Source: Arcobacter vandammei (GTDB lineage Bacteria; Campylobacterota; Campylobacteria; Campylobacterales; Arcobacteraceae). From it: a stretch of 64,000 bases of DNA. A model generated the notes under the pieces. It was not told the DNA's origin, did not search any database, and saw only the letters and a list, made by a program, of their open reading frames with translations. The stretch covers positions 62,001 through 126,000 of the forward strand of contig NZ_JADKPZ010000003.1 in the NCBI RefSeq assembly GCF_016106035.1, written 5' to 3'. The position numbers and the translations under genes were made by a program. Shown here piece after piece: positions 1,762-46,412 of this stretch. Position 1 is the first letter of the stretch. Every line of letters starts with the position of its first letter.

Positions 1762-3422
1762 TGAAAATTTTAATTGAAGGTGAGAAGTATAATACATCTG
1801 ATATAAAAGACATTATAGATTCTAGATTTTATAAAGAGAATGGGACTAAATCAATTATCGATTATGTTGGATATTACTATTCTTTTAAAAATAAAGAAGT
1901 TGTATATATACTTCCAAAAGTTTTTATTGATGAAAATAAAAAAGTTTTATTTGAATACGATAAACTTGATTTAATCAAACCTGAATTTGAAGAAAATATA
2001 AAAGATAAAGCTAAATTAAATCAATTTAAATATTTGTTAATTCTTTTTAACAAAAGTTTAATTGAATATAAAAATAGATATTATTCATCAGATTTATTAT
2101 CTGAAATGGATTCTATAATATTCAATAGTAATATTGGAAAAGATGAATATTCTTATATCGATATTGTTTTAAATATTATAAATTTTCATAAGAAAAATAA
2201 AACTACAATACTATTCATTGAAAAACAATATAAATCTCAACAACATAGAAAAACAAGTTGGCAAAAGACTATCAATAAAACTTTACCTTTTGTAGATAAA
2301 AATAATGATCCAATTTATATAAAATCTTATAATAGGAAAAAATACACAGATACAGAAGAAACTTTACTAACAATTTTTTATTCGGTTTTAAATTATTTAA
2401 GAGAAGAGTATAAATTTAATATTAACATTGATAATATTTATTTTATTTATACTGGTAAATCTTATGCGAAATTAATTCTTAATGCTCCAAAAATTCTTAA
2501 AAAAATTAAGTATAAATATTTTTCTGATACATTAATTAAAATTTACAAACTTATGGAACTATATTTTAATGTAGATATAAATGCTAGCACATCGAAAAAA
2601 AATGAAGAATTTTTAATGGTAAACAAATATCATATAATATTTGAAGATATGATTGATAAATTATTTTCTGATAATTTAGACAATCCAGATTTATCTAAAT
2701 TAAAGAATCAACAAGATGGAAAGATTGTTGACCATTTATTTGAATATGATTCTTTATTATCAAACGATGAGAGTATTTTTTATATAGGGGATTCTAAATA
2801 TTACAAGATAAAAGATAAAGATAATAATATTACTGATAAAAAATCAATTTACAAGCAGTTTACTTATGCTAAAAATGTAATTCAGTTTAATATTGATTTA
2901 TTAAATGATAGGAAAACTATAAATAGCAAAATTAGATATAGAGATGAAATTACAGAAGGATATAATATCTCACCAAATTTTTTTATTGAAGGTAGAATTT
3001 ATGAAGATATGAACTACGATAAAGCAGAAATTTCACCTAATGGAAAAATTAATTCATCTTATCATTTTACAGAAAGATTATTTGATAGAGATACATTATT
3101 TGTTCATCACTATAATATTAATTTTCTTTTTGTTTTAAAGTCATATACAATTTTTAATAGTTTTAAAATTGAAGCTTTTAGAAAAGAATGTAAAGATAAA
3201 TTTAGAAGAAATTTTATTGAATATCTATCAAAAGAATATATGTTTTTTGAACAAGATTTTAGTACAGAATCAGAGTTAAAAGACTTTGTGGATAAGAATT
3301 TTAGAGTACTTAATGGTAAAATATATAGAATTAATAAAAGTTTAAAATTAATTGTAGCTACTAAAAATCGTGATGAAGTATTGTTTTTATCATCACTTTT
3401 TAGTGAATTTAAACTAAGTTAA
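1761..3422 (+). CDS. McrC-like / LlaJI-family restriction endonuclease subunit
   Basis: A 553-residue protein starting on the last base of the McrB-like gene's stop. A PD-(D/E)xK nuclease core is visible: an acidic residue in VDHLFEYD (D324) followed after about 20 residues by IGDSKYYKI (D344, K346), the usual D...D-x-K layout of McrC-type nucleases. It is longer than E. coli McrC (about 350 residues) and fits the size of LlaJI-type partners. The N-terminal half is lysine-rich with no other recognisable domain. It probably cleaves DNA when activated by the AAA+ partner. The target sequence cannot be read from this. Confidence 0.78.
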   Translation: MKILIEGEKYNTSDIKDIIDSRFYKENGTKSIIDYVGYYYSFKNKEVVYILPKVFIDENKKVLFEYDKLDLIKPEFEENIKDKAKLNQFKYLLILFNKSLIEYKNRYYSSDLLSEMDSIIFNSNIGKDEYSYIDIVLNIINFHKKNKTTILFIEKQYKSQQHRKTSWQKTINKTLPFVDKNNDPIYIKSYNRKKYTDTEETLLTIFYSVLNYLREEYKFNINIDNIYFIYTGKSYAKLILNAPKILKKIKYKYFSDTLIKIYKLMELYFNVDINASTSKKNEEFLMVNKYHIIFEDMIDKLFSDNLDNPDLSKLKNQQDGKIVDHLFEYDSLLSNDESIFYIGDSKYYKIKDKDNNITDKKSIYKQFTYAKNVIQFNIDLLNDRKTINSKIRYRDEITEGYNISPNFFIEGRIYEDMNYDKAEISPNGKINSSYHFTERLFDRDTLFVHHYNINFLFVLKSYTIFNSFKIEAFRKECKDKFRRNFIEYLSKEYMFFEQDFSTESELKDFVDKNFRVLNGKIYRINKSLKLIVATKNRDEVLFLSSLFSEFKLS

Positions 3423-3599: not shown

Positions 3600-6500
3600 A
3601 TGTCACAAATACCACAATTTACACATTTACATTTACATACAGAGTACTCACTTCTTGATGGTGCAAACAAAATCAAACCACTTGCAAAAAAACTAAAAGA
3701 GTTTGGAATGACAAGTGTCGCTATGACCGACCATGGAAATATGTTTGGTGCGATAGATTTTTACAATGCTATGAGAAATGAGGGCATAAAACCAATTATT
3801 GGAATGGAAGCCTATATCCACAATAGCGAAGATTTGGGCGATAAGACAAATAGACAAAGATACCATTTATGCCTTTATGCAAAAGATGAAATAGGTTATA
3901 AAAATCTTATGTATCTAAGTTCACAAGCCTATATAAATGGTTTTTACTACTATCCAAGAATAAATAAAGAGCTTCTAAAAAAACACTCTGCTGGGCTTGT
4001 TTGTAGTGCTGCATGTCTTCAAGGAGAAGTAAATTGGCACTTAAATACTCAAAATGAAAGAAATGTTAAAAATGGTGCAAAAGGTTATGAAGAGGCAAAA
4101 AGAATAGCACTTGAATACAAAGAGATTTTTGGAGATGATTTTTATCTTGAGATTATGAGGCATGGTATTGGGGATCAGCACTTTGTAGATGATCAAATAT
4201 TAAAAATCTCAAACGAAACTGGCATAAAAGTTGTTGCTACAAATGACACTCACTATTTAGAGCAAAAAGATGCTGATGCACACGAAGCTTTTATGTGCAT
4301 TGCTATGAATAAACTCTATGATGATCCAAATAGATTAAGACATAGTGTTCATGAGTTTTATTTAAAATCACAAGAGCAAATAAGTAAACTTTATGCTGAT
4401 ATTCCTGAAGCAATTGAAGCAACTCAAGAGATAGCAGATAAGTGTAATTTGACAATCAAGCTAGGAAACCCAACTCCACCAAACTTTAAATTTACAAGAG
4501 ATAAATTAAAAGAGAGAAATATCGATATACCTGAGTCTGAACTGGAGTATTCGCTAGAAAATGACAAGGTTCTTTTTGCTTATGAGTGTAGAATTGGACT
4601 TGAAGAGAGATTAAAACTTGTCCCAATCGAAAAACACGAAGAGTACAAAGCTAGGTTGGAGCTTGAAATTGAGATTATAAACAATATGAAGTTTCCAGGA
4701 TATATGCTAATCGTTTGGGATTTTGTGAAAGTTGCAAAAGATATGGGAATTCCAGTAGGTCCTGGAAGGGGTTCGGCCGCTGGAAGTTTAGTAGCATATA
4801 GTTTACAAATTACCGATATAGACCCTATTCCTTACGGGCTTCTTTTTGAGAGATTTTTAAATCCTGAAAGGGTATCAATGCCCGATATTGATATGGACTT
4901 TTGTCAAAGTAGACGAGGGGAGATTATTGATTATGTTGTAAATCAGTACGGAAGAGCCAATGTTGCTCAAATTATCACTTTTGGTAAACTTCTAGCAAAA
5001 GGAGTTATACGAGATGTTGCAAGAGTTTTAGATATGCCTTATGCAAGAGCCGATGCTATGGCAAAATTAATTCCCGATGAGTTGGGAATAAATCTTACAT
5101 CTTCTTGGGAAAAAGAGCCAAAAATAAAAGAGCTTTGCGAAGCTGATCCTTTGGCTGCTAGAGTTTGGGAATATGCTCTTGCCTTAGAAGGCTTAAATAG
5201 AAATGCAGGAACTCATGCAGCTGGAGTTGTTATTTCAAATGAGCCACTTTGGAATAAAACACCACTTTTTAAACCAAGTGGATTGGATACTCTTGCAACT
5301 CAATACAACGGAAAATATATAGAAGATGTGGACTTGATAAAGTTTGACTTTTTAGGGCTTAAGACTCTTACAGTTATTGATGAAGCTATAAAATTAATAG
5401 AGCAAAGACATGGCAAAAAAATAGATTTTAAAACCATAGATGTAAATGATAAAGGTGTTTATGATTTAATCCAAACAGGCGATACTTTGGGACTATTTCA
5501 AATAGAATCCGACGGTATGCAAGATTTGTGTAAAAGACTTAAGCCATCAAATTTTGAGGATATTGTTGCCGTTCTTGCACTTTATAGACCAGGACCTATG
5601 GAATCTGGAATGCTTGATGATTTTATCGAAAGAAAGCACGGACGAGCAAAGATTGACTATTTCCACGATGAGCTTGAAGAGGCACTAAAACCAATATTAG
5701 AAAACACTTATGGAGTTATTGTTTACCAAGAACAAGTTATGCAAATTGTACAAAGTGTTGGAGGATTTTCTTTGGGTGGAGCAGACCTTGTGCGAAGAGC
5801 TATGGGTAAAAAAATCAAAGAAGAGATGGATAGATTAAAAGGTCAATTTGCCGATGGTGCAGAACAAAAAGGATTTACAAGAGCCTATGCAGAAGAGCTT
5901 TTTGATTTGATTGTAAAGTTTGCTGGATATGGATTTAATAAATCTCACTCAGCTGCTTATGCTTTGGTTACTTTTTATACTTCATATTTAAAATGCTACT
6001 ACAAAGCCGAATTTATGGCAGCTTTATTGACACTAGAAAAAGATAATACAGATAAAGTTGTGCGATATGTTGATGAGGTTAAAAGACTGGGTCTTGAGCT
6101 TTTTGCACCTGATATAAATAAATCTGATTTGGTTTTTTCAGCTACAAATATTGATGGCAAAGAAGTTGTAATGTTTGGAATGGGGGCAATTAAAGGTGCT
6201 GGAGATATAGCTATAAACTCTATTTTAAATGCAAGAGGAGAAAAAGGATTTAATGATTTATCAGATTTTGTTTCAAGAATAGACTCAAGCAAGGTAAATA
6301 AGAGAGTTATAGAATCTTTAGCAAAAGCAGGGGTTTTTGATAGTTTTGGATACTCAAGAAATGCACTTTTAAGCCAAATAGAAAAAATAATAGATGGTGC
6401 ATCAAAAGCTAGTAATGCAAAAAAAATGGCAACAGGTTCACTTTTTGGAGATAGTGAAGAGCTTACAAAAATAGAAATTGAACTTGAAAATTTAAGCGAA

Positions 6501-26776: not shown

Positions 26777-27610
26777 ATGATAAAAAGAAGTAAAAACCTA
26801 TTTGTTTTAAGTACACTTTTAGGAGCATCACTTTTTGCAAATGATAATTTAGTTTTAGATTATGAGAAAAAAAGAGTTTCTCAAAATCCAAATGTAAAAG
26901 TAAAAGATATTAAAATAAATACTAAAAAAGATTTAACAATTTCTGGATGGACTGGATATATTTTGGATATTGATGCAGTTATTCAGGGAAAAGATATTAA
27001 AGCTAAAGATTTTTTATTCACAAATGGAACACATATTGCACCAGAGTTAATTGATATAAAAACTATGCAATCAATGAAAGATGTTATTATTCCAAATTTA
27101 ACAGATAAATACTACACAAAAGCAAATTTTATAGCTGGAAATGAGAAAGCAAAAAATAAAGTTGTTTTATTTTCAGACCCATTATGTCCATTCTGTATGG
27201 ACTATATCCCAACAGTTATAAATGAAGTTAATAAAAATAAAGAGAATATTGCACTTTATTATTATGCTTTTCCTTTAATGCAAATTCATCCAGCTTCATT
27301 GCCTTTATCTAAAATGATTGATATTGCACACAATAAAGGTGTTGCAGATATTGTAACAAAGGCATATACAACTGATTGGTCAAAACATTTTGATGAAAAA
27401 ACAACTGATGAAGCGAAAATCTTAGAAGCATTTAATAAAGAGCTTGGAACTAATATTAAAATTGAAGAGTTAAATAAAAAAGATATAAATGACAAAATTT
27501 CAAAAGATATAAATATGGGTGATGATGTTATGGTTTCTGGAACACCAACAATTTATGTAAATGGTGTAAAAGAGAGTCCAAAATTCAATTTTGATACTTT
27601 GGGTAAATAG
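26777..27610 (+). CDS. Periplasmic thioredoxin-fold disulfide isomerase (DsbC/DsbG-like)
   Basis: A 277-residue exported protein with a signal peptide (MIKRSKNLFVLSTLLGASLFAND). The thioredoxin fold carries the redox motif CPFC (C137-C140) in FSDPLCPFCMDYIP and a cis-proline loop V-S-G-T-P-T-I-Y-V-N-G near the end. It likely oxidises or isomerises disulfides of exported proteins. The substrate is unknown. hemC follows three bases later, implying one transcript. Confidence 0.87.
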   Translation: MIKRSKNLFVLSTLLGASLFANDNLVLDYEKKRVSQNPNVKVKDIKINTKKDLTISGWTGYILDIDAVIQGKDIKAKDFLFTNGTHIAPELIDIKTMQSMKDVIIPNLTDKYYTKANFIAGNEKAKNKVVLFSDPLCPFCMDYIPTVINEVNKNKENIALYYYAFPLMQIHPASLPLSKMIDIAHNKGVADIVTKAYTTDWSKHFDEKTTDEAKILEAFNKELGTNIKIEELNKKDINDKISKDINMGDDVMVSGTPTIYVNGVKESPKFNFDTLGK

Positions 27611-27613
27611 TAT

Positions 27614-28552
27614 ATGGAAAAACTTGTAATCGCAACAAGAAGAAGCCAACTTGCTCTTTGGCAAAGTGAATATATAAAAGCTGAACTTTTAAAACACTAT
27701 CCAAATATGAAAATAGAGCTTCAAGAGTTTGTAACAAAAGGGGATAAAATCCTTGATGTGCCACTAGCAAAAATTGGTGGAAAAGGGCTTTTTACAAAAG
27801 AGCTAGAAGTTGCTATGCTTGAAGGCTCTGCTCATCTTGCAGTGCATTCACTAAAAGATGTGCCAACACAGTTTGAAGATGGGCTAACTTTGGCTGCTGT
27901 TTCAAAAAGATTTAATCCACAAGATGCAATTTTGAGCAACAAATACAAAAGCCTTGATGATTTACCAAAAGGTGCAGTTGTAGGAACTACGAGTCTGCGA
28001 AGAAGAATGGCTATAAAAATGCTAAGACCTGATATTGAACTAAAAGATTTAAGAGGAAATATCAACACAAGAATAGCAAAATTAAATGCTGGTGAGTACG
28101 ATGCGATAATCCTAGCAGCTACTGGAATAGAGAAGCTAAATTTACAAAATGAAGTAAAATATTTTTCACCAATTCCAACAGATATTATGATACCTTCTAT
28201 GGGACAAGCAACTTTAGGAATAGAAACTACAACAGATCCAAAAATTATTGAGATTGTTAGCGTATTAAATGATAAAAATGCTGAAATAGAATCAAAAATT
28301 GAAAGAGGTTTTGTAGATATGCTTCAAGGTGGATGTCAAGTTCCAATTGGAATAAAAGCTACAATTTTAGATGAAAATAGTGTAAAAATCTCTGCAATTG
28401 TGGGACTTCCTGATGGAACAGAGTATATAAAAGATGAAAAAATTGTAGATATAAACTCTTATGAAAGTGCTGGAAGAGATTTCGCACAAGATTTCATAAA
28501 AAAAGGTGCAGTTGAGCTTCTAAAAAGAGCTGAAGCTATGGCTTTTAAATAA
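27614..28552 (+). CDS. hemC: Porphobilinogen deaminase (hydroxymethylbilane synthase)
   Basis: A 312-residue tetrapyrrole enzyme joining four porphobilinogens. The dipyrromethane cofactor is carried by C241 in QGGCQVPIG, and the N-terminal ATRRSQLALWQ is typical. One base separates its stop from the ATG of the restriction gene that follows. Confidence 0.97.
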   Translation: MEKLVIATRRSQLALWQSEYIKAELLKHYPNMKIELQEFVTKGDKILDVPLAKIGGKGLFTKELEVAMLEGSAHLAVHSLKDVPTQFEDGLTLAAVSKRFNPQDAILSNKYKSLDDLPKGAVVGTTSLRRRMAIKMLRPDIELKDLRGNINTRIAKLNAGEYDAIILAATGIEKLNLQNEVKYFSPIPTDIMIPSMGQATLGIETTTDPKIIEIVSVLNDKNAEIESKIERGFVDMLQGGCQVPIGIKATILDENSVKISAIVGLPDGTEYIKDEKIVDINSYESAGRDFAQDFIKKGAVELLKRAEAMAFK

Positions 28553-28553
28553 G

Positions 28554-29705
28554 ATGCAAAATAGTATTATCTATGAATATGAAGAAGTTTTAAATAAAAA
28601 TTTAAAAAATCATATCATAGATAATATCTCACTTCATAAATACTTCTCCTTTGATTGGAGAGATTTAAAAGCCACTTCATATTGTGGGATTTTAAATTTT
28701 GAAAATCAAGATTTTTATATCTTACCAAAAATTGCAAAAGATGAAAAACAAAATCTAAATATTTTTATTTATATGTTGATGTTTTCTTATGATATAAAAC
28801 TCTCAAATGAACAAATTGCAATTTGTTCAAACCAAAAATACACTATTTTAGAAGTTTTTGTGCAGATGTTTGCCAAAAATTTACTTGATGAGTTAAAAAA
28901 AGGAGTTTTTAAAGAGTATATTTTAAAAGAGGAAAATTTAAGAGTTTTAAAAGGAAAATATCTAATAAATGAAAATCTAAAATATAACTTTACACACGAT
29001 AAAATTTATTGTCAATATGATGAATTTTGTGAAGATAATACATTAAATCAACTCTTTTTATATGCAGTTAAATTTTTACAAAAATATGTAAAAGATAAAA
29101 AACTTTTAAAACAGATTGAGCTTATTTTTGATGAAGTTGAATACAAACACTTTGATATAACTAAGATAAATATTCATTTTAATAGATTAAATCATAGATT
29201 TAAAACAAGTTTTGAGATGGCTATTTTACTTTTGAAACAACTTATTCCAATATTTTCACAAGATAAAAAGAGTTTTGCTTTTTTATTTGATATGAATATA
29301 CTTTTTGAGAAGTTTATAGCTAGAGTTGTAAAAGATTTAGATAGTCGTGCAAAGATACAAAATAAAGATAATTTTGGCGATTTAATCTTAAAACCAGATA
29401 TTATTTTGCTTAATCAAATAATAGATACAAAATATAAAAAACTAAATAGTTTAGATGACTTAAAACAAAGTGATAAACTTCAAGCTTTTGCTTATGGAGT
29501 AAACTATAAAGTTGAAAATGTAATGCTTTTGTATCCTAGACATTTGGATGAGATAAAATATGATTTAGTTTTAGGAAAAGATGATAAAAAAGTAGATTTA
29601 AAAATAAGATGTATTGATTTAAACTATGAAAAAGATAGTTTTGATGAGTATATTTGCGAGATAAAAAAAGAGTTGAGGGGCTATTATGAGTTTAGTAACA
29701 AATAA
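28554..29705 (+). CDS. mcrC: McrC-like nuclease subunit
   Basis: A 383-residue member of the McrC (5-methylcytosine-directed restriction) family. An N-terminal beta-rich region (F-S-F-D-W-R-D-L-K-A-T-S-Y-C-G-I-L-like) leads to the nuclease core L-K-P-D-I-I-L-L-N-Q-I-I-D-T-K-Y-K, with D282, D291 and K293 as probable PD-(D/E)xK residues. It begins one base after hemC and overlaps the next gene by 20 bases. The order mcrC-nuclease-mcrB is the reverse of the classical mcrB-mcrC order. It should need the AAA+ partner at 30675 for activity. Confidence 0.88.
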   Translation: MQNSIIYEYEEVLNKNLKNHIIDNISLHKYFSFDWRDLKATSYCGILNFENQDFYILPKIAKDEKQNLNIFIYMLMFSYDIKLSNEQIAICSNQKYTILEVFVQMFAKNLLDELKKGVFKEYILKEENLRVLKGKYLINENLKYNFTHDKIYCQYDEFCEDNTLNQLFLYAVKFLQKYVKDKKLLKQIELIFDEVEYKHFDITKINIHFNRLNHRFKTSFEMAILLLKQLIPIFSQDKKSFAFLFDMNILFEKFIARVVKDLDSRAKIQNKDNFGDLILKPDIILLNQIIDTKYKKLNSLDDLKQSDKLQAFAYGVNYKVENVMLLYPRHLDEIKYDLVLGKDDKKVDLKIRCIDLNYEKDSFDEYICEIKKELRGYYEFSNK

Positions 29706-30678
29706 TTTATATAAAGAAGTAAAACAACTATTAGAAAATGCTAGAAATAAGGTTTATCAAACTATAAATAGCACTATGACACAAACCTATTTTGAAATAG
29801 GAAGAAAAATAGTAGAAGAAGAGCAACATGGAGATGAGAAGGCAAAATATGGTGCAATGCTTATAGAAAATTTATCAAAAGAGCTTACAAAAGAGTTTGG
29901 GAAAGGTTTTTCAGTAGATAATTTAGAAAATATGAGACGATTTTATCTAGCCTTTTCAATTTCCGAGACAGTGTCTCGGAAATTTGTATTAAGTTGGTCG
30001 CACTATCTATTTTTAACTAGAATTGAAAATATAGATGAAAGAAATTTCTATGAAATAGAGGCATTTGACAATAACTGGAGTTTGCGAGAGTTAAAAAGAC
30101 AGTTTAATAGTGGGCTTTTTGAAAGATTGGCTTTGAGTAAAGATAAAACAAAAATAAAAGAGCTTTCAACAAAAGGACAAATTGTACAAAAAGCAAATGA
30201 TATGATAAAAGACCCTTATATTTTGGAGTTTGTTGGGCTTCCTGAATTATCAAGTTACAGTGAAAGCCAATTGGAGCAAAAACTAATAGATAGGCTAGAG
30301 AATTTTTTACTAGAGCTTGGAAAAGGTTTTACATTTGTTGCTAGACAAAAAAGAGTTACAATAGATGAAAAGCATTTTAAAGTTGATTTGGTTTTTTATA
30401 ATAGGCTTTTAAAATGTTTTGTTGTAATTGATTTAAAAATTGGAGAGCTAAAACATCAAGATATTGGGCAAATGATGATGTATGTAAACTATTTTGATAG
30501 GTTTGAAAAACAAGAAGATGAAAATCCAACTATTGGGATAATTCTTTGTAAAGATAAAAGCGAAACTTTGGTTGAACTTACTTTGCCAAAAGATAATAAG
30601 CAAATTTATGCAAGTAAATATTTAACAGTTTTACCAAATAAAGATGAGTTGAAAAAATTATTGGAAGAGGGGGAATGA
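29686..30678 (+). CDS. DUF1016 / YhcG-like PD-(D/E)xK nuclease
   Basis: A 330-residue protein of the DUF1016 (YhcG) family. Its N-terminal domain has the hallmark L-S-W-S-H-Y and R-E-L-K-R-Q motifs. Its C-terminal nuclease domain holds D234 (F-K-V-D-L-V-F-Y) and D249-x-K251 (V-V-I-D-L-K-I-G). The family is linked to restriction and other mobile defence loci. It lies between mcrC and mcrB with overlaps at both ends (20 and 4 bases), so it is built into the cassette. A 27-base perfect palindrome lies in the coding region around 29971. Confidence 0.9.
   Translation: MSLVTNNLYKEVKQLLENARNKVYQTINSTMTQTYFEIGRKIVEEEQHGDEKAKYGAMLIENLSKELTKEFGKGFSVDNLENMRRFYLAFSISETVSRKFVLSWSHYLFLTRIENIDERNFYEIEAFDNNWSLRELKRQFNSGLFERLALSKDKTKIKELSTKGQIVQKANDMIKDPYILEFVGLPELSSYSESQLEQKLIDRLENFLLELGKGFTFVARQKRVTIDEKHFKVDLVFYNRLLKCFVVIDLKIGELKHQDIGQMMMYVNYFDRFEKQEDENPTIGIILCKDKSETLVELTLPKDNKQIYASKYLTVLPNKDELKKLLEEGE
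29958..29984. repeat. 27-base perfect palindrome inside the DUF1016 coding region
   Basis: Thirteen bases (AATTTCCGAGACA) mirror perfectly around a single central G at 29971. Translated in frame the segment gives the residues ISETVSRKF, next to the conserved LSWSHY motif. It is unusually GC-rich for this gene. No second copy was seen in the window. Confidence 0.9.
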
Positions 30679-32123
30679 TGATGAATGAAGATGCTTTTAG
30701 AGAATATTTAGGACAAGTAATTAATCAAAGAGGTAATAATTTTACTGAAGCAACAATTAATCAATTTATTGATGATTTGAAAAATAAAATACCAAATCAA
30801 GTTCAAGGCTATGGTAATTTACTCAATATTTATAATTATAAAATAGTAGAAAGTATAAAAGAAAGACTCAACAATCCTGATGATGCATTATATGAATTTA
30901 ATAGAAGAGAAGGAAATGGTCGTCCAAGTAATGCATTATTTCATTATATTAACTTTCTAAAAAAAAATGAGCATATGGTAACTGAAGAGAAAACAAACCT
31001 AAAAATAAAAAATATAATGCTTTATGGTGCACCAGGAGTTGGGAAAACTTATAATTATAAAAAATTGGTTTCATTAATTGAAAGTGGAAAATATAGTGAA
31101 AATGATATTTTTAATGTACTTATTGAAAATAAAAATTTAGATATAAATATTGATGAAACTTTTGGGAATATTGAAAAAGAGAATAGATTAGAATTTGTAA
31201 CATTTCATCAAAGCTACTCTTATGAAGATTTTATTGAAGGGTTTAGACCAAATGAAGATAAAACTATAAAGCTTGAAGATGGAATATTTAAAAAACTTTG
31301 TGATGATGCAGAAATAAATCTATTAAAATCATCGAACAAAAAAGAACTTTTATTTATAGATGCTATTAATTTATTTTTAAGAGAAAAAATAGAAAACCAA
31401 GAGAGTGTAAAAATCAATTTAAAAAGAGATAATAGTTACTTTAATATTTATGACTACAATAATAAAACTATTTATTTTGAAAAGCAAAATGGTGATAAAT
31501 CACATACATTATCTCTTAAAACTTTAGAAAAGATGTATTATGAAGAGGGTAATAATATTATAAATGGAGGACTTGCTCCATATTATAATCCTATTTTAGA
31601 GGAATTATTAAAATTAAAAAATAAAATAAAAGTAGAAGAAACCAAACAAAAAAACTTTTATATAGTAATAGATGAGATAAATAGAGGAAATATCTCTAAA
31701 ATCTTTGGAGAACTTATCACTTTGATAGAAGAAGATAAAAGAGATATTTACGAAGTAACACTTCCATACTCAAAAGAGAAGTTTAAAATACCCTCAAACT
31801 TATATATTATAGCCACTATGAATAGTACAGATAAATCTATTGCAACTATTGATATAGCTTTAAGAAGAAGATTTACATTTTTAAAGATGAAACCGCAAGA
31901 AAGTTTAGTTCCAGAAAATGCAAAAGAACTATTTATAAATCTAAATAATTTTATAGAAAAAACTTTAGGAGAAGATTATCGACTTGGACATAGCTATTTT
32001 ATGCAAGGCTTAGACTTGGATTTTGTAAAAGAGTATAAAATCAAACCTTTACTTGAAGAGTATTTTTATGGTGATGATGAAAATTACAAAAAAGCAGAAA
32101 ATATTTTATACCCAAAAAGCTAG
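30675..32123 (+). CDS. mcrB: McrB-like AAA+ GTPase/ATPase
   Basis: A 482-residue protein with the McrB signature: Walker A GAPGVGKT (118-125), Walker B V-I-D-E-I-N-R-G-N (D333-E334), sensor A-T-M-N-S-T-D (N383-D386) and R-R-R-F shortly after. The N-terminal ~110 residues are the presumed target-recognition part and do not resemble the EVE/YTH-like domains I know. A ~110-residue insertion separates Walker A and B. The ATG lies in an ATG-ATG-ATG run overlapping the nuclease gene. With mcrC and DUF1016 it forms a three-gene cassette. Confidence 0.9.
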   Translation: MMMNEDAFREYLGQVINQRGNNFTEATINQFIDDLKNKIPNQVQGYGNLLNIYNYKIVESIKERLNNPDDALYEFNRREGNGRPSNALFHYINFLKKNEHMVTEEKTNLKIKNIMLYGAPGVGKTYNYKKLVSLIESGKYSENDIFNVLIENKNLDINIDETFGNIEKENRLEFVTFHQSYSYEDFIEGFRPNEDKTIKLEDGIFKKLCDDAEINLLKSSNKKELLFIDAINLFLREKIENQESVKINLKRDNSYFNIYDYNNKTIYFEKQNGDKSHTLSLKTLEKMYYEEGNNIINGGLAPYYNPILEELLKLKNKIKVEETKQKNFYIVIDEINRGNISKIFGELITLIEEDKRDIYEVTLPYSKEKFKIPSNLYIIATMNSTDKSIATIDIALRRRFTFLKMKPQESLVPENAKELFINLNNFIEKTLGEDYRLGHSYFMQGLDLDFVKEYKIKPLLEEYFYGDDENYKKAENILYPKS

Positions 32124-39085: not shown

Positions 39086-40063
39086 ATGAATTTTAAAAAT
39101 TCTATTGAAAAATTTGTAGAAATATATAATAGATCAAATTTAAGTATATCCAAATTTGCTTCTATGATAAATAAAGATAGAAGAACGGTTACATCGTGGA
39201 TTGATAACCATACAAATATAGAACCAACAAAAGAGACAAAGGATAAAATTTGTCAAATTTTTAGGTATCCAGATTATATTTGGGAAGATGCTTGTAGTGG
39301 CGAAGAGTTCTTAAAATCTATAACTCAAATACCACAAAAAGAGGTAAGAATTATAGATGAAGACTATAAAGGGCGATTACAATATATCATTGAACATGAA
39401 AAAAATAGAAGATTTGTAATACAAGCTCAATTTCCAGGACCCATGTATAGAGATTCTGCTGTACGAAAAGTGTACAAAGGAACAACAAGTCCTGATATAG
39501 AAGAGCTAAAACAAGAGAGAATTGATCAAATGCTAAGATATGATTATGATACAACTGAGTGGTATTCGATAAAATCGGTACTTAGTTTTTGTTTTGCAAG
39601 TATTGGAAACTTCTTTACAAAAGATGAAAAGATAAAAATACTTGAACTTATGTATGAGTTATTTAATAATAACTACAACAAAAAGCTATTTTTATTTGAC
39701 TCATTTTCAAGAAAAATTTATGGAATGGAGACAACATATATATCTATAAATGTAAAAAATAAGATTTTGTTTTTTAAATCACCTATTGAGTCTGTTTTTA
39801 TTGAAATTAGAAATAAAAATCTAGTTGAAAGAATGCACAAATATTATAGCTCTCCTATTGAAGCACCTTCTCATGTGAATTTTTTGGAGTCCGTAAAAAT
39901 TTTAAAGATACTTCAAGATGCACTAAAATACAACAATACAATTACTCAAGCTTATGAGACTATAAATCGTGAAACAAATTATGGAGAACTATTTTATAAT
40001 AATCTTAGTGTTGATTTGCAAAAAGAGGTAAGTCCACCAAAACTTGGGCAAAGGAGAAATTAG
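39086..40063 (+). CDS. Probable regulator of the prp operon (HTH N-terminus, unknown C-terminal domain)
   Basis: A 325-residue protein transcribed away from prpB. Residues about 17-60 (LSISKFASMINKDRRTVTSWI...) form a helix-turn-helix. The remaining ~260 residues are an unrecognised domain with several aromatic-rich helices and no cysteine cluster or sigma-54 interaction (GAFTGA) motif. It is therefore not the sigma-54 PrpR of enterobacteria, and it does not look like a GntR protein. Position and operator-like repeats suggest local control of propionate catabolism. The ligand is unknown, perhaps 2-methylcitrate by analogy. Confidence 0.75.
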   Translation: MNFKNSIEKFVEIYNRSNLSISKFASMINKDRRTVTSWIDNHTNIEPTKETKDKICQIFRYPDYIWEDACSGEEFLKSITQIPQKEVRIIDEDYKGRLQYIIEHEKNRRFVIQAQFPGPMYRDSAVRKVYKGTTSPDIEELKQERIDQMLRYDYDTTEWYSIKSVLSFCFASIGNFFTKDEKIKILELMYELFNNNYNKKLFLFDSFSRKIYGMETTYISINVKNKILFFKSPIESVFIEIRNKNLVERMHKYYSSPIEAPSHVNFLESVKILKILQDALKYNNTITQAYETINRETNYGELFYNNLSVDLQKEVSPPKLGQRRN

Positions 40064-40110
40064 AATAAATACTTTATTCTAATTTATTTAGAAAATGGGC
40101 TTTAAAGCTT

Positions 40111-40893
40111 TTATTTTTTGGATAACTTATTTTGAATTTCTTCTTTCTCTTTTAAATACTCTTTTAAAGTTTTTTCTTCATTTGAAAGTTCAACTTTTAA
40201 TTTTTTTAAATTCTCATTTTTCCAAATATGTTTTGTAATAGCATTATGATTTTCTTTAGTCTCTTTTTCTACACTATTTTTTAAATTTTCAACTCTTTTT
40301 TCTATTGAAGAAATTTCATTTTTTAAAAAATCTTGTCTTGTTTCTAAAGCTTTATAATCTACATAAAAAAATATTTTATATATAAAATAAATAAGAAGAA
40401 TTAGAATAAAAACAGCTAAATATTTAATATATTTTTCAATTTTTTCATCTCTTTTATTGTCTTTATTCAGATTATAATTATTGTATCTATTAAAATTATA
40501 CTTTTCATCTATTTTAGATTTAATATCAATTTTATCATTAGAAAAATTGCTATATTTTCTTTCTTTGGAAGCTTTCACCTTAGAAATATACTGCCTTAAT
40601 TCTAGTATTGCTGATTCAACCATTGAACTATATTCGGCAATATTAGGATTTGCATCAGGATTATGAACTGTATCATTTCTAATTGATGCTATTTTTCTTA
40701 ATCTTTTTACATTGATGTTGTTATCAGCAAATGTTTTTTCCATAAAATTTATATACTCATGAAGTCCTCTTCCTTCAGCTTTTAGTTCATCTTTAAAGAT
40801 TGCTTCTAGTTGCTTGGATAATCTAACAACTTCTCCTATAGCAAATGATTCTAGTTCGGTATTTTCTATATATTCATTATTTAAATTATCCAT
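40111..40893 (-). CDS. Membrane-anchored protein with HEPN-like N-terminal domain and coiled coil
   Basis: A 260-residue protein, last gene of the cluster. Residues 15-105 are helical and include L-R-K-I-A-S-I-R-N-D-T-V-H (R72-x4-H77), the R-x4-6-H motif of HEPN RNases, in a context resembling DUF4145-type domains. A basic linker follows, then one membrane helix (about 158-178) and a long charged coiled coil (182-260). If the motif is active, the domain would cut RNA at the inner face of the membrane. The domain is related to the N-terminus of the first gene of this cluster. Not a named family to my knowledge. Confidence 0.72.
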   Translation of the reverse strand: MDNLNNEYIENTELESFAIGEVVRLSKQLEAIFKDELKAEGRGLHEYINFMEKTFADNNINVKRLRKIASIRNDTVHNPDANPNIAEYSSMVESAILELRQYISKVKASKERKYSNFSNDKIDIKSKIDEKYNFNRYNNYNLNKDNKRDEKIEKYIKYLAVFILILLIYFIYKIFFYVDYKALETRQDFLKNEISSIEKRVENLKNSVEKETKENHNAITKHIWKNENLKKLKVELSNEEKTLKEYLKEKEEIQNKLSKK

Positions 40894-40908
40894 AATCGCC
40901 CTAAAATA

Positions 40909-41034
40909 TTATTTCTTTGAAAAAATTGCTTTTATTAAATTTGCAATTCCCTCAATAGTTTTAATAACTAACCAACCTAATTTCATAAAACTCTTTAAAA
41001 TCCATGCTTTCCAACCACTTACACCATTACTCAT
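40909..41034 (-). CDS. 41-residue amphipathic mini-protein
   Basis: A short open frame (MSNGVSGWKAWILKSFMKLG...) with a GGAGAAA site seven bases before its ATG. It fills the gap between its neighbours almost exactly (10 bases before the start, 15 after the stop). It has two tryptophans in the first 11 residues and a third later, a hydrophobic/basic helix and a lysine-rich end. This composition suits a membrane-active peptide or a small membrane-complex subunit. No homologue recognised. Confidence 0.6.
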   Translation of the reverse strand: MSNGVSGWKAWILKSFMKLGWLVIKTIEGIANLIKAIFSKK

Positions 41035-41044
41035 TTTTTCTCCT

Positions 41045-41266
41045 TTATTTATATAAATTTTTAATATTATTTTTTCTTTTTTCTAATTCATCTTGAGAGA
41101 TTTTATATTTTTCTTCTAGTTCTTCAATTTTTTTGTTTTTATCTTGCAATTCTTTTGCAAAATCTGAATAAATAGCTAATGCAATCTTTTTTCTTAAGTC
41201 ACAACAATCTGTATAAATGAAAGCACTAGTTATTAAAATGATTAAAGAAGCAATTAAATATCTCAT
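41045..41266 (-). CDS. Small membrane-anchored or exported coiled-coil protein
   Basis: A 73-residue protein: an N-terminal hydrophobic segment (MRYLIASLIILITSAFIY), a short C-C-D-L motif and a lysine/glutamate coiled coil to the end. It overlaps the preceding membrane gene by four bases (ATGA). The hydrophobic part could be an uncleaved anchor. Function unknown; the layout recalls small accessory subunits of membrane complexes. Confidence 0.7.
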   Translation of the reverse strand: MRYLIASLIILITSAFIYTDCCDLRKKIALAIYSDFAKELQDKNKKIEELEEKYKISQDELEKRKNNIKNLYK

Positions 41267-42153
41267 TTTTTTCTCCCAAATATCCTTATTAAAGGTAAGC
41301 AGAAAATTATCAAACCTTGTTGAAGTAGAAGATATGATATTGAAAGAGTGAAAAATTTAATAAAATTTAAGACAGAAATCATAAAATAAAAAAGACTAAA
41401 GTAATGTTTTCTATCATTATCTAAGAAAATATCTACTATTTCATTTGCAAAAGCTAATTTGAAATTGTCTAATAATATATATGTCGTAACTATTTGTCTT
41501 GAAATATCGTTACTTCCATTTGAAATAATTTTATTTTCAAGAGTTAATTCATCAAAATTATTTAAACTGATTTGATTTGATGATACAAATGAGTTGGTAT
41601 CATTATATGATATTGTTATTGCTAAAATAAAAGATGATATAACTGCACCTAAAAAAATTCTTAAAAAATTATTTCCTACATCAGTAACTTCTGATTTTAG
41701 ATTATCTTCTAAACTATTTGGAATCCATTTTTTAGTCATTGAAATATTAAATACTAATACATTAATTGCAACCATTACAATAAATAATAAAAAATTATTA
41801 AAAATATTAAAGTCATATGAAATACCTTTAAATATATATAATAATACAAATGAAGTAACAATACTAAATATTATTGATATTACAAATGAAATAATACTGT
41901 GTTTACTAAACCAATGAAATATTTTGCTATCTTCTTTTGCAATAATTCTAGTCGCTTTTCTAAGTGCTTTTTGCCTTTCAAATAGGGCAATAAATATAAA
42001 AAAGCAAGAAACAAAATACAATATTAATGATAAATTGTCATTTTTTGTAAAAATTATATTTTGTACAAAAACAAAAACCCATAATAATAAAACAAAAAAT
42101 AAATTAGTCAAGCCAAACTTTTTAATAAAAAACACAACATTCCCCCCATACAA
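41263..42153 (-). CDS. Multi-pass membrane protein of unknown function
   Basis: A protein of up to 296 residues with about six membrane helices (around 12-32, 39-57, 88-110, 119-140, 166-186 and 245-285) and a ~60-residue polar loop between helices 5 and 6. The ATG at 42153 lacks a ribosome-binding site. An in-frame GTG at 42135 is preceded by a GGGGGA tract and may be the true start; the coding region would then overlap the previous gene by 14 bases. No transporter or enzyme motif is visible. It is the integral-membrane core of this cluster. Confidence 0.75.
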   Translation of the reverse strand: MYGGNVVFFIKKFGLTNLFFVLLLWVFVFVQNIIFTKNDNLSLILYFVSCFFIFIALFERQKALRKATRIIAKEDSKIFHWFSKHSIISFVISIIFSIVTSFVLLYIFKGISYDFNIFNNFLLFIVMVAINVLVFNISMTKKWIPNSLEDNLKSEVTDVGNNFLRIFLGAVISSFILAITISYNDTNSFVSSNQISLNNFDELTLENKIISNGSNDISRQIVTTYILLDNFKLAFANEIVDIFLDNDRKHYFSLFYFMISVLNFIKFFTLSISYLLLQQGLIIFCLPLIRIFGRKK

Positions 42154-42604
42154 TAAAATTAAAAAAACTACCTAATAATGAAATTAGATATATAACTAAT
42201 AGTGTTAAAATTGTACCTAGACCTATAGTTTTTAGGAAAGAAATAATAGGAGACTCTTCATTACTTTTATAATTTCCATTAGATATTTCTTCTAACTCTT
42301 CTTTTTCTAATTTTTTATAAACTAAATCTCTTGATTCATTAAAAATAATATTACTTATAAACTTAACATTTTTAAGTTTTTCATCAATATCTGAAATATC
42401 ACTATTCTTATCTAAATTTGCAAAAGATTTTAAATCTTTGATATTTACACCAATAACTCTTAAATACTGTTCTACAGAATTTATTTTTTTAAGAAATGTA
42501 CTACCCTCGGCATTTAAATCCTCACTTAATAAATCTTCAATAAATTCAAGTTCTTCAAAAAACTCTTTCTTCTTATCAATATCTTTTTTCAATAAATAAT
42601 CCAA
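42122..42604 (-). CDS. Membrane-anchored paralogue of the HEPN-like domain, motif lost
   Basis: A 160-residue protein, first gene of the minus-strand cluster. Residues 15-105 are helical; 124-153 form one strong hydrophobic helix. Its segment D-L-N-A-E-G...V-N-I-K-D-L-K-S-F-A-N-L lines up with E-L-K-A-E-G...I-N-V-K-R-L-R-K-I-A-S-I of the last gene. The R-x4-H of that partner is D-x4-I here. It may be a catalytically dead, regulatory copy. The start is a TTG at 42604 (or a later TTG) without a clear ribosome-binding site. Confidence 0.7.
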   Translation of the reverse strand: MDYLLKKDIDKKKEFFEELEFIEDLLSEDLNAEGSTFLKKINSVEQYLRVIGVNIKDLKSFANLDKNSDISDIDEKLKNVKFISNIIFNESRDLVYKKLEKEELEEISNGNYKSNEESPIISFLKTIGLGTILTLLVIYLISLLGSFFNFIVWGECCVFY

Positions 42605-42662
42605 TATATTAGATTGTTTTAGAAATCATAACAAACTAAACTTAAAAAATCTAATATATTAG
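42601..42662. promoter_or_regulatory. Twin operator in the divergent intergenic region
   Basis: The perfect palindrome CTAATATATTAG (42651-42662) and a near copy CCAATATATTAG (42601-42612) sit at the two ends of the 67-base gap between the XRE gene and the membrane cluster. Each copy is placed next to one start codon, the expected layout for autoregulation and control of the cluster by the XRE protein. Confidence 0.7.
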
Positions 42663-42671
42663 GGTGTTTTT

Positions 42672-42932
42672 TTGAAAGATATTGAAGATTTAGAGTTTGA
42701 TTTTGCTGAAAAATTACATAGAAGAATTGGGGAAAATGTTCAAAAAGTAAGAAAAGCAAAAAAGGTATCTCAGCTAAAACTAGCTTATGCTTTAGGATAT
42801 AAATCAGTTTCTCAAATATCTAGTGCAGAAGTCTATTACAATAAAATACATTTTAATATTGAACAACTTGCAAAAATTTCTTATGTTTTAGATGTCCCAA
42901 TATCTATATTTTTTGAAGATACAGAGAAATAA
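42672..42932 (+). CDS. XRE-family transcriptional regulator
   Basis: An 86-residue single-domain regulator with a full HTH_3 pattern: R-I-G-E-N-V-Q-K-V-R-K-A-K-K-V-S-Q-L-K-L-A through V-P-I-S-I-F-F. The start is TTG at 42672 with AGGG eight bases upstream. It is transcribed away from the membrane cluster across a palindromic operator pair, so it most likely represses that cluster. Confidence 0.9.
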   Translation: MKDIEDLEFDFAEKLHRRIGENVQKVRKAKKVSQLKLAYALGYKSVSQISSAEVYYNKIHFNIEQLAKISYVLDVPISIFFEDTEK

Positions 42933-43015
42933 AATACAGCTATAAAAAATCCCAAAATCATCTTACTAATGCTATTTTCTCATTTTTTATATTGTTTTTT
43001 ACTCTATTTTTTTAT

Positions 43016-43023
43016 GTTATAAT
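43016..43023 (+). promoter_or_regulatory. Extended -10 promoter for hydroxyacid dehydrogenase
   Basis: TGTTATAAT-type extended -10 (TATAAT at 43018-43023), 24 bases before the ATG. Confidence 0.7.
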
Positions 43024-43047
43024 CAAAATTTAATATAAGGAAGAAAG

Positions 43048-43974
43048 ATGAAAATAGTAATTTTAGATAGAAAAACTTTAGGATTTGATGTAAGTGTAGA
43101 TGTTTTTTCAAAATTTGGGGAAGTTGTATCTTATGATATAACAAATGCAAATGAGACAAAAGAAAGAATTAAAGATGCAGATATTATTCTTACAAATAAG
43201 GTTTATGTGGGAGAGAATGAGTTAAAAAACTCTAGTGTAAAACTTATCTGCATAACTGCAACAGGGATGAATAATGTAGATTTAGCTTATGCAAAAGCTT
43301 CAAATATAGAGGTGAAAAATGTTGCTGGTTATTCAACTTCTAGTGTTGTACAACTTGCATTTTCTATGATTTTTTATTTTGTACAAAAACTAAGCTACTA
43401 TAAAAAATATGTAGATGAACAAAACTGGCAAAAAAGCGATACTTTTACTCATATTGATGAGCCATTTTTTGAACTTGATAAAAAGAGAGTTGGGATTATT
43501 GGGCTTGGTGAAATAGGACAAAATTTTGCAAAAAAAGCTACTGCTTTTGATTGTGAAGTTGTTTATTATTCTACAAGTGGACAAAATTCAAATACTCTTT
43601 ACAAAAGTGTAAGTTTGGAAGAGTTACTAAAAACTAGCGATATTATCTCGATTCATGCACCTTTAAATGAGAAAACTCTAAACCTTTTAAAATATGATGA
43701 ATTAAATCTTATAAAAGATGGTGCTATTTTACTAAATCTTGGTCGTGGTGGAATTATAAATGAAGCTGATTTAGCAAAAATCTTAGATGAAAAAGAGATT
43801 TTTTGTGGGCTTGATGTTGTTTCAAAAGAACCAATTGAAGAAAATAATCCACTATTAGCTGTAAAAAACAAACAAAGACTTTTATTAACTCCGCATATTG
43901 CATGGGCTAGTGTTGAAGCTAGAAAGAGATTAATTGAAAAAGTAGCAAATAATATTGAAGAGTTTTTAAAATAA
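43048..43974 (+). CDS. D-2-hydroxyacid dehydrogenase (NAD-dependent)
   Basis: A 308-residue dehydrogenase. The Rossmann motif V-G-I-I-G-L-G-E-I-G-Q (about 148-158), the I-S-I-H-A-P-L-N motif, L-L-N-L-G-R-G-G-I-I-N-E and the catalytic H in L-T-P-H-I-A-W-A-S are all present. Members reduce glyoxylate, hydroxypyruvate or related 2-oxoacids; the precise substrate cannot be read from sequence. It is monocistronic with a consensus promoter. Confidence 0.93.
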   Translation: MKIVILDRKTLGFDVSVDVFSKFGEVVSYDITNANETKERIKDADIILTNKVYVGENELKNSSVKLICITATGMNNVDLAYAKASNIEVKNVAGYSTSSVVQLAFSMIFYFVQKLSYYKKYVDEQNWQKSDTFTHIDEPFFELDKKRVGIIGLGEIGQNFAKKATAFDCEVVYYSTSGQNSNTLYKSVSLEELLKTSDIISIHAPLNEKTLNLLKYDELNLIKDGAILLNLGRGGIINEADLAKILDEKEIFCGLDVVSKEPIEENNPLLAVKNKQRLLLTPHIAWASVEARKRLIEKVANNIEEFLK

Positions 43975-44061: not shown

Positions 44062-44190
44062 CTATTTTCTAAAAAATACTCTAAATATTTTTTTGTAGAA
44101 TGGAAGCTTTTTTTCATAAAGCTTCTCTTCTACAATCTTTCTAAGAGAGATTAGATTTTTTGGAGTATAAATAGCTTTTGATATTTTCAC
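44062..44190 (-). CDS. 42-residue basic protein, third gene of the ZorAB-like operon
   Basis: A short frame starting at GTG (44190), overlapping the OmpA-like gene's TGA in a GTGA junction and preceded by AGGAG. It encodes MKISKAIYTPKNLISLRKIV... and ends in a lysine/arginine/phenylalanine-rich tail. The coupling and good ribosome-binding site support translation. It could be a true small subunit or the surviving start of a longer lost gene. No family recognised. Confidence 0.62.
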   Translation of the reverse strand: MKISKAIYTPKNLISLRKIVEEKLYEKKLPFYKKIFRVFFRK

Positions 44191-45197
44191 TTTTTATCTC
44201 CTAAATAGTTTTGAATCTCTTTCATAGCATCTTCATTTTTTAGATTAAATTTAATCTCAATTCTTCTTGAAGCATCTTTATCTTCAACTCCATTTTTATC
44301 TAAAATTAAATCACTATCACTTCTTCCACTAGAGTTTATATATTTGCTAAGTAAATCTCTACTTATGATATTTGAATCATATAAAAACTGCATAACAGCT
44401 TGAGCTCTTTGCTGAGAAAGTGCAAGATTTGAAAGATAAGTTCCATCGCTATTTGTATGCCCTTCAATAGTTATACTTTCGATATTTTTTCTTATCTCTT
44501 TATCTTCAAGAAGTGTTGATAGATATTTTTTTAGAGTATTTTTTAACTCTTTTTTTGACTCCTCTTTTAGTGTTGATGAAGCTTGGTCAAATAAGATATT
44601 TGAAGAGAATTTTATAGCTCCACTTTTTTCATCAATTTGTATAGAGTCGCCCAATTTCTCTTTTAGTTTTGCAATAACATTTAGTTTTAAACCAGTTAAT
44701 GTTTTGATTTTAAGTTTGGCAATATCAAACTCTTCAACCATTTTTTGATGAATTTGAGTTTGAACCAAAAGCTTATCTGCTAAAAGTTTAATCTCTTCAT
44801 CTCTTAGAGTTATAATATTTGATTTTTCATCTATATTTTTTGTAATCTCTTCATTTTTTGTCTGTTCATCTTTATATTTTACTTCAATATCTAAAAGCAG
44901 GGCTTTTAATTTGTCAATTTCACTAGCTTTTAGATTTATCTCATTTTTACTATTTTCTAAATCATTTTTTGTATTTTCATATAAATTTTTGGCTTTTGCT
45001 AACTCTAAAAATAGTTTTGATTTTTGCTCTTCACTTGAATTTAGAGCCTTTTTCTCCTCTTCTAGGCTATTTTTACTAACAGTGTATTTAATAACAATTG
45101 CCCCAATTACTAGAATAAATACAAAAAGTAATCCAGCCATTAAATCTGCATAGGAAATCCAAAAATTTTCTTGACTATTTTGATCTTTTTTATACAT
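44187..45197 (-). CDS. MotB/OmpA-domain motor stator protein (ZorB-like)
   Basis: A 336-residue inner-membrane protein. The single N-terminal membrane helix holds the protonatable aspartate D18 in S-Y-A-D-L-M-A-G-L-L-F-V-F, the MotB/ZorB hallmark. A coiled coil covers residues 40-180. The C-terminal OmpA-like peptidoglycan-binding domain (about 200-336) carries I-E-G-H-T-N-S-D-G and L-S-Q-Q-R-A. It starts six bases after the MotA-like gene ends. No flagellar gene is nearby, so a non-flagellar ion-driven motor such as that of Zorya defence is a candidate. Confidence 0.85.
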   Translation of the reverse strand: MYKKDQNSQENFWISYADLMAGLLFVFILVIGAIVIKYTVSKNSLEEEKKALNSSEEQKSKLFLELAKAKNLYENTKNDLENSKNEINLKASEIDKLKALLLDIEVKYKDEQTKNEEITKNIDEKSNIITLRDEEIKLLADKLLVQTQIHQKMVEEFDIAKLKIKTLTGLKLNVIAKLKEKLGDSIQIDEKSGAIKFSSNILFDQASSTLKEESKKELKNTLKKYLSTLLEDKEIRKNIESITIEGHTNSDGTYLSNLALSQQRAQAVMQFLYDSNIISRDLLSKYINSSGRSDSDLILDKNGVEDKDASRRIEIKFNLKNEDAMKEIQNYLGDKK

Positions 45198-45203
45198 TCT
45201 TCA

Positions 45204-46412
45204 CTACTTATTTAACTCTTTAAATTCTTTTAAATCAGAAATTATTTTTGAAGCCTCTTCATCTATTGCTTCTAAAGAGTTTTTGATTTTTTCATCATAA
45301 TTTTCTAAACCTTGAGTAAATTTCCACTCAATTTTATCCATATCACCTTTCATCGTCTCAATACTTTTAATAATATTTGAATATATAGCTTTTAGGTTGT
45401 CTGAGCTTAGATTTCCCATATGTGAATTTAATTTAATAATATTTAGATTTAACTCTTCAGTAACATAAGTATATCTATCTTTTTGTTTTTCAAAGTTTGA
45501 GATAATATTTGAAATTGAGTTTGAAACACTATTTAAAGCAACTACCAATCTTTCATTATTTTCTATATTTGTATCAATTTTTGAAGTTAATAATAACTCT
45601 TTTTCTAAAAGATTTTCAAGATTTTCAAATCTTTTTTCTATTGAACTATTTATTGACTCTAAAATATTGCTTGAAGTTAATTCAGAAAAAATCTCTCTCA
45701 TTTTTGTAAAGTTATCAAGATTACTTTTTAGATGAATTGATTCAATATCAAGTCTTGTCCAAAATAGAGATTTTGTCTCTTCTTTGATTTTGTATGAAAG
45801 TTGTTGGAATTTACTCATCCCAAATTTTTCAAAAAAAGTCCACCAAATAGATAAAAAAATACCATAAATAGATACATAAAATGCTGTTCCAACTCCACCT
45901 AAAAGCTTTGTAATCTCACTTTCAAGTGCATTTGTAGCATTTGAGCTAAAGTCAGGCATTGAAATAGCAATAGATATAAATGTTCCTAAAATTCCTAAAG
46001 TTGGGAAAATTCCACTTGCAATACTTGAAAAATTACTATTTCTTAAATTACTTGTATAATCTTGTAAAAAATCATCAACATTTCCATTTGCTTTTGTTGT
46101 ATCTCCAATTGTAAGTTGGTTTTTATTTGCATACTCTTTTAGATTTACATCAACATCGTGGTATAAAGTTTTGAATTTACAAGCAACATAAAAAGCATTG
46201 TGTTTTACAAAAAATAGATAGATTAAAAGAATAAAACCTATTAAAATAACACTATGAATTTCAAATTTCAGTGGAAAAACTCCAGCAAAACATAAAATTA
46301 CTAATAAATATAATAAAACAGGAACAGTCAAAAGTGTTACAAATTTAGAGTTTGTATTACAATTTGACTGCAAGTTTTGGCTAATCTTTAATGAATCAGC
46401 ATTTAGTATCAT
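45204..46412 (-). CDS. MotA/TolQ/ExbB-family channel with long coiled-coil tail (ZorA-like)
   Basis: A 402-residue protein with four probable membrane helices (about 25-46, 53-69, 131-152, 170-194). The F-P-T-L-G-I-L-G-T-F-I-S-I and L-L-G-G-V-G-T-A-F-Y-V-S-I-Y-G motifs are those of the MotA/TolQ/ExbB proton-channel family. Residues 200-402 form a long coiled-coil cytoplasmic tail, the ZorA-type arrangement, although known ZorA tails are generally longer. With the next gene it should form an ion-driven membrane motor. Zorya effectors (zorC/D or zorE) are not adjacent. Confidence 0.83.
   Translation of the reverse strand: MILNADSLKISQNLQSNCNTNSKFVTLLTVPVLLYLLVILCFAGVFPLKFEIHSVILIGFILLIYLFFVKHNAFYVACKFKTLYHDVDVNLKEYANKNQLTIGDTTKANGNVDDFLQDYTSNLRNSNFSSIASGIFPTLGILGTFISIAISMPDFSSNATNALESEITKLLGGVGTAFYVSIYGIFLSIWWTFFEKFGMSKFQQLSYKIKEETKSLFWTRLDIESIHLKSNLDNFTKMREIFSELTSSNILESINSSIEKRFENLENLLEKELLLTSKIDTNIENNERLVVALNSVSNSISNIISNFEKQKDRYTYVTEELNLNIIKLNSHMGNLSSDNLKAIYSNIIKSIETMKGDMDKIEWKFTQGLENYDEKIKNSLEAIDEEASKIISDLKEFKELNK

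Follow-up and report, generated by a model that had tools for sequence, protein, structure and literature searches.

The window analyzed here, a 64,000-nucleotide stretch of the Arcobacter vandammei genome, contains a compact cassette in which an XRE/HTH_3 regulator of 86 amino acids (aa) with a TTG start (positions 42672 to 42932, plus strand) is divergent from five minus-strand genes. All six open reading frames of the original prediction are present, and neighboring genes of the five overlap or lie 10 to 15 bp apart. Reading from the operon start, they encode a 160-aa protein with a single C-terminal transmembrane (TM) helix at residues 127 to 145 (42122 to 42604, with a likelier TTG start at 42592, preceded by GGA), a 296-aa integral membrane protein with about 6 to 7 TM helices (41263 to 42153, with a likelier GTG start near 42135, preceded by GGGGGG), a 73-aa protein in which an N-terminal TM or signal helix is followed by a coiled coil (41045 to 41266), a 41-aa cationic, amphipathic peptide (40909 to 41034), and a 260-aa protein with a predicted N-terminal HEPN domain, a TM helix at residues 160 to 178, and a C-terminal coiled coil (40111 to 40893). 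TM segments were predicted by hydropathy, which assigns one each to the 160-, 73-, and 260-aa proteins, about seven to the 296-aa protein, and none to the 41-mer, in agreement with the earlier description of a one-helix protein, a roughly six-helix protein, a 73-residue anchored coiled coil, and a 41-residue amphipathic peptide. The ribosome-binding sites of the 73-, 41-, and 260-aa genes (GGGAG, AAGGAG, and AGGG, respectively) are all good, and codon use in the two smallest genes is coding-like, resembling that of real genes in the window and equaled by no out-of-frame control stretch.

The cassette is horizontally acquired foreign DNA in an Arcobacter-type genome. Comparison with congeners, in collections with one genome per species, delimits a single clean insertion of 2,973 bp (2.97 kb) at about positions 40063 to 43035: most congeners have an empty site at which the two flanking genes, an upstream regulator gene that ends at 40063 and a D-2-hydroxyacid dehydrogenase gene that starts at 43048, are directly adjacent, and in the nearest congeners position 40062 joins approximately 43036. 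The GC content of the cassette is the lowest in the window (21.7%, against a median of 27.6% for 2.9-kb stretches). We saw neither an integrase nor a transposase at the insertion, nor any clear target duplication. Since one congener carries thymidylate synthase and dihydrofolate-reductase-like genes at this position, the site is variable, yet it is not a recognized defense hot spot; we set the hot-spot idea aside as unsupported, congeners being either empty there or occupied by those metabolic genes.

On the basis of its sequence, the 260-aa protein carries a true HEPN-type domain (residues 16 to 107; positions 40573 to 40848, minus strand). Against a profile built from its relatives, with the window sequence left out, this domain scores 50.3 bits, compared with 9.9 bits for the best of 2000 shuffles. 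Residues E30, G41, G43, A69, R72, N73, H77, and L99 are invariant in 8 diverse aligned domains, and the signature E-G-x-G-A-RN-x3-H is kept across diverse plasmid-borne relatives. The R-x4-H motif that had been noted in a membrane-anchored coiled-coil protein is found here as RNDTVH (R72 to H77; 40663 to 40680, minus strand), a catalytic-type motif that fits the HEPN pattern R-x4-6-H with a polar residue after the arginine and that is conserved among the relatives. RN-x3-H is the signature of HEPN RNases. The 260-aa protein itself scores under the Pfam HEPN thresholds; its relative on an E. coli plasmid exceeds the HEPN_RiboL-PSP cutoff (38.6 versus 28.4 bits) and also weakly matches DUF4145 and Swt1-HEPN. 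A single-sequence model places helices at residues 3 to 40, 44 to 57, 62 to 77, and 85 to 131 (pLDDT of about 55). The fold assignment rests on sequence profiles because the single-sequence AlphaFold2 model of the whole protein is poor (pLDDT of 60) and, when searched with Foldseek, gave no match with an E value below 0.25.

Within the HEPN superfamily, the domain resembles the DUF4145-like (PF13643) and RiboL-PSP-HEPN (PF18735) families in being helical with an RN-x3-H motif. Bacterial membrane-anchored HEPN proteins have been predicted to degrade RNA at the inner membrane upon a stimulus (PMC3710099), and the cassette subfamily (AEGRGLHE...RN-x3-H, with an N-terminal HEPN domain and then a C-terminal TM helix) differs from the three TM architectures described in that study. 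The 260-aa protein also lies just over the cutoff of DUF6548 (PF20185; 28.4 versus 27.3 bits), a family without known function for which the Alteromonas relative is subthreshold, and much of the match falls in the linker and TM region.

As a query against the genome and viral collections, the 260-aa protein returned no match, and the phage collection was negative both for it and for the Alteromonas HEPN domain. The link to other taxa is an Alteromonas plasmid protein with 45% identity to residues 14 to 78, through which plasmid relatives were reached in Variovorax (annotated as DUF4145), E. coli, Acidithiobacillus, Deinococcus, Hydrogenophaga, and Enterobacter. Most relatives have a hydrophobic helix C-terminal of the domain, many are plasmid-borne, and three genomes of another Campylobacterota family encode proteins of this type. 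Two E. coli plasmid loci (L085, positions 683 to 2066, and L086, positions 4947 to 6304) encode a mini-HEPN protein with tandem HEPN domains and a C-terminal anchor; a gene for a small, glycine-rich hydrophobic membrane protein follows, its start overlapping in L085, and 5 of 5426 E. coli genomes encode the double-HEPN protein, every time on a plasmid. In another Campylobacterota genome, a protein with a DUF4145-like domain (RNHIVH) at its C terminus adjoins a MotB/OmpA-like gene (L094, positions 1432 to 2340 and 2343 to 3077).

The N-terminal domain of the 160-aa protein is probably that of a degenerate or dead HEPN paralogue: it lacks the R-x4-H motif and scores 9.9 bits against the mini-HEPN profile, with 7.9 bits for the best of 2000 shuffles. 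The originally proposed HEPN-like domains are supported for the 260-aa protein and weakly so for this second, degenerate copy. Pfam, NCBIfam, PHROGs, and PADLOC contain nothing convincingly related to the 296-, 73-, or 41-aa protein; we dropped weak matches to Rz spanins, AI-2E transporters, and GtrII as chance similarity of TM or coiled-coil segments. The 296-aa protein (model pLDDT of 52) gave only weak, broken matches among 397 genomes of the phylum and no relatives in viral contigs, and a plasmid search with the 296-, 160-, and 41-aa proteins found nothing.

Co-occurrence of the five genes across Campylobacterota had been proposed as a check, and it failed: the 296-, 260-, and 160-aa proteins were each sought in 250 to 400 Campylobacterota genomes, and the set was seen once, in this genome, with no second example in any collection searched. 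Comparison therefore lends no support to a conserved five-part complex or to cooperation among its members. PADLOC-DB 2.0.0 has no match for the five cargo proteins and matches the XRE regulator only as a generic HTH protein, and together with the failed recurrence, this weighs against naming the cassette a defense system now. None of the cassette proteins belongs to a nucleotidyltransferase family, as a HEPN-MNT pair would require. Zorya and other membrane-based phage defenses offer an analogy, that of a membrane complex with a nuclease-like effector, and share no genes with the cassette.

The locus had also been described as lying among defense-like loci, which holds for the McrC-like (28554 to 29705) and McrB-like (30675 to 32123) genes 8 to 11 kb away but not for the adjacent ZorA/ZorB-like (MotA/OmpA) pair (44187 to 46412): this pair is conserved in many congeners and hence lies outside the island, and neither ZorC nor ZorD was recognized among the nearby open reading frames scanned. 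The region from 28554 to 32123, taken with 26777 to 28552 and 29686 to 30678, has the McrC- and McrB-like genes interspersed with genes that lack an NCBIfam match and is possibly a variant McrBC-type system.

The divergent regulator matches HTH_3 with an E value of 3.3e-4 (21.1 bits, slightly below the curated cutoff of 23). As first noted, it is accompanied by a twin operator, present as two 28-nt copies that are each palindromic, 86% alike, and 50 bp apart: AATCTAATATATTAGGGTG beside the XRE start (42643 to 42670) and AATCCAATATATTAGATTG beside the operon start (42593 to 42620). In the 2.2-Mb genome, the operator core is found at these two cassette sites and nowhere else. What the original prediction overlooked is that this regulator belongs to a large family with one layout and copy-specific operators. 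Its relatives are regulators of about 80 to 90 aa with up to 69% identity to the window protein; 68 of the 104 Arcobacteraceae genomes have them, at 1 to 11 copies each (seven in A. vandammei), and so do 6 of the 19 genomes that were tested from other families in the order.

Among 100 XRE copies surveyed in 54 genomes, 56% (about half to two thirds) have twin similar palindromes 46 to 57 bp apart in the same upstream place, whereas 1% of dinucleotide-shuffled sequences and none of 99 downstream control stretches do; the other copies, about 44%, fall under the twin-operator threshold. The copies closest to the window regulator (61 to 69% identity) have the same operator, AATCTAATATATTAGATT, and other clades have operators of their own, including AACTTTATATATAAAGTT, AACTTATTATAATAAGTT, CTTGTTATAACAAG, ATTCCCTATAGGGAAT, ACTAACTATAGTTAGT, and TTATCCTATAGGATAA. 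Operator similarity tracks the recognition-helix region (Mantel r of 0.57, p = 0.0002), and the partial r that allows for the rest of the protein, with shared descent only partly removed, is 0.44. Within one copy, the paired sites differ at a mean of 3.2 positions, and the sites of different copies in the same genome differ at a mean of 8.6 and never at fewer than 5. Judged from these sequences, the family keeps one operator layout while each member's palindrome is private within its genome. A literature search returned no paper that names both the twin-operator layout and XRE paralogues, which is weak evidence of novelty.

Restriction-modification C proteins and phage repressors of the CI/RstR type are likewise one-domain XRE proteins of about 80 aa that autoregulate through paired palindromic operators, and the cassette regulator is like them in size, in its one domain, and in its paired palindromes. 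Unlike in those systems, the palindromes of the cassette-XRE family stand 46 to 57 bp apart around a divergent promoter region, and a single genome can contain many paralogues that each have an operator sequence of their own and a cargo of envelope genes.

In most cases, the operon divergent from an XRE copy is rich in genes for lipoproteins and membrane proteins. With operons predicted by a simple gene caller, 61% of the genes divergent from good twin operators are envelope-like, as opposed to 35% of the other genes at the same loci (p = 8e-4), and a lipobox is present in 18% and 2%, respectively (p = 3e-5). Cargo varies even among copies that share one operator, and related lipoproteins stand behind copies with different operators in the same A. 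vandammei genome (L156, L159, and L160), so switch and cargo recombine. Searching the cargo of the other cassettes examined for the five window genes and with the HEPN profile yielded no relatives; most of that cargo is lipoproteins and small secreted proteins, and it gives no sign of defense. In one cassette with the exact operator of the window (L137, positions 1074 to 2903), the cargo includes a small secreted protein, an SNase-like protein, and a lipoprotein.

Such sister cassettes, with their lipoproteins and their secreted, zinc-ribbon membrane, and SNase-like proteins and without recognized defense genes, raise the alternative that the window cassette is an ordinary unit of niche or envelope adaptation, which would alter the inner membrane under stress and have no antiphage role, its HEPN-like domain serving as a protein- or RNA-binding dimerization module. 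The want of PADLOC matches for the cargo fits this alternative, as do the three relatives of the HEPN protein in another Campylobacterota family, which lie between housekeeping genes and of which two end in an Excalibur domain. A mere scaffold, however, has no need of the catalytic-motif arginine, asparagine, and histidine that are strictly kept in 8 diverse relatives, and the HEPN relatives are often plasmid-borne; we regard this explanation as unlikely, albeit the strongest of the competing accounts.

A narrower account, and an improbable one, would have the 260-aa effector and its dead 160-aa partner form a HEPN abortive-infection module, with the remaining three genes carried along by accident. 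The tail-anchored mini-HEPN gene is indeed often solitary, as in Alteromonas, in Variovorax, and on a 2-kb E. coli plasmid, and the 160-aa protein is probably a paralogue; against it, the five genes all overlap or follow one another closely, share one promoter region, and lie within one insertion. Least probable is a toxin-antitoxin-like or antimicrobial unit in which the 41-mer is active, as a membrane toxin or in the manner of a leaderless bacteriocin, and the membrane proteins provide immunity or export: the peptide is amphipathic (p of about 0.013 versus shuffles), has a charge of +6 and two or more tryptophans, and follows a strong ribosome-binding site, but it matches no bacteriocin family, no Pfam or NCBIfam entry, no PDB structure even at an E value of 10, and no plasmid relative, and the cassette has no recognizable exporter gene.

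We return to the reading of the locus as a horizontally acquired, self-regulated accessory cassette whose cargo includes a putative membrane-tethered HEPN RNase and whose function probably lies in stress or phage response, a reading that we hold tentatively. The XRE protein, probably as a dimer, would bind the two copies of its private palindrome, one overlapping the start region of its own transcript and the other that of the divergent operon. Because one palindrome stands at each divergent transcript start, in a layout common to many paralogues, we infer repression of both the operon and the regulator. The cargo would form an envelope complex with the 260-aa protein as effector, its putative HEPN RNase domain lying in the cytoplasm and anchored to the inner membrane by a single TM helix, with the coiled coil beyond, and the 160-aa protein probably acting as a HEPN partner without catalytic activity. 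The 7-TM, 73-aa, and 41-aa proteins may sense envelope or phage-entry stress or keep the nuclease inactive, and derepression or activation would then lead to membrane-tethered RNA cleavage and to growth arrest or a block to the phage. This agrees with the original prediction of a membrane-associated stress- or phage-response complex with a regulated RNase in so far as the HEPN domain of the 260-aa protein, the membrane anchoring, the XRE control, and the variable island are concerned; the recurrence of the genes as a conserved set did not hold up, and a defense role would follow only by inference.

With somewhat less than an even chance of being right, we suggest more broadly that the Arcobacteraceae have a large and growing repertoire of insulated XRE switches whose recognition helices and operators have diversified together and which place foreign membrane cassettes under private control, the one in the window being loaded with a membrane-tethered HEPN defense complex of a new type. 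The small membrane-anchored HEPN subfamily to which its putative effector belongs is found on plasmids of Escherichia, Enterobacter, Alteromonas, Variovorax, Acidithiobacillus, and Deinococcus. If the broader suggestion is true, it would show by what means a bacterial family brings foreign membrane genes under control, each arriving with a repressor and an operator that do not cross-talk with the resident copies, and the dozens of related repressor-operator pairs would constitute a natural collection for studying the evolution of DNA-binding specificity and for use as independent switches.
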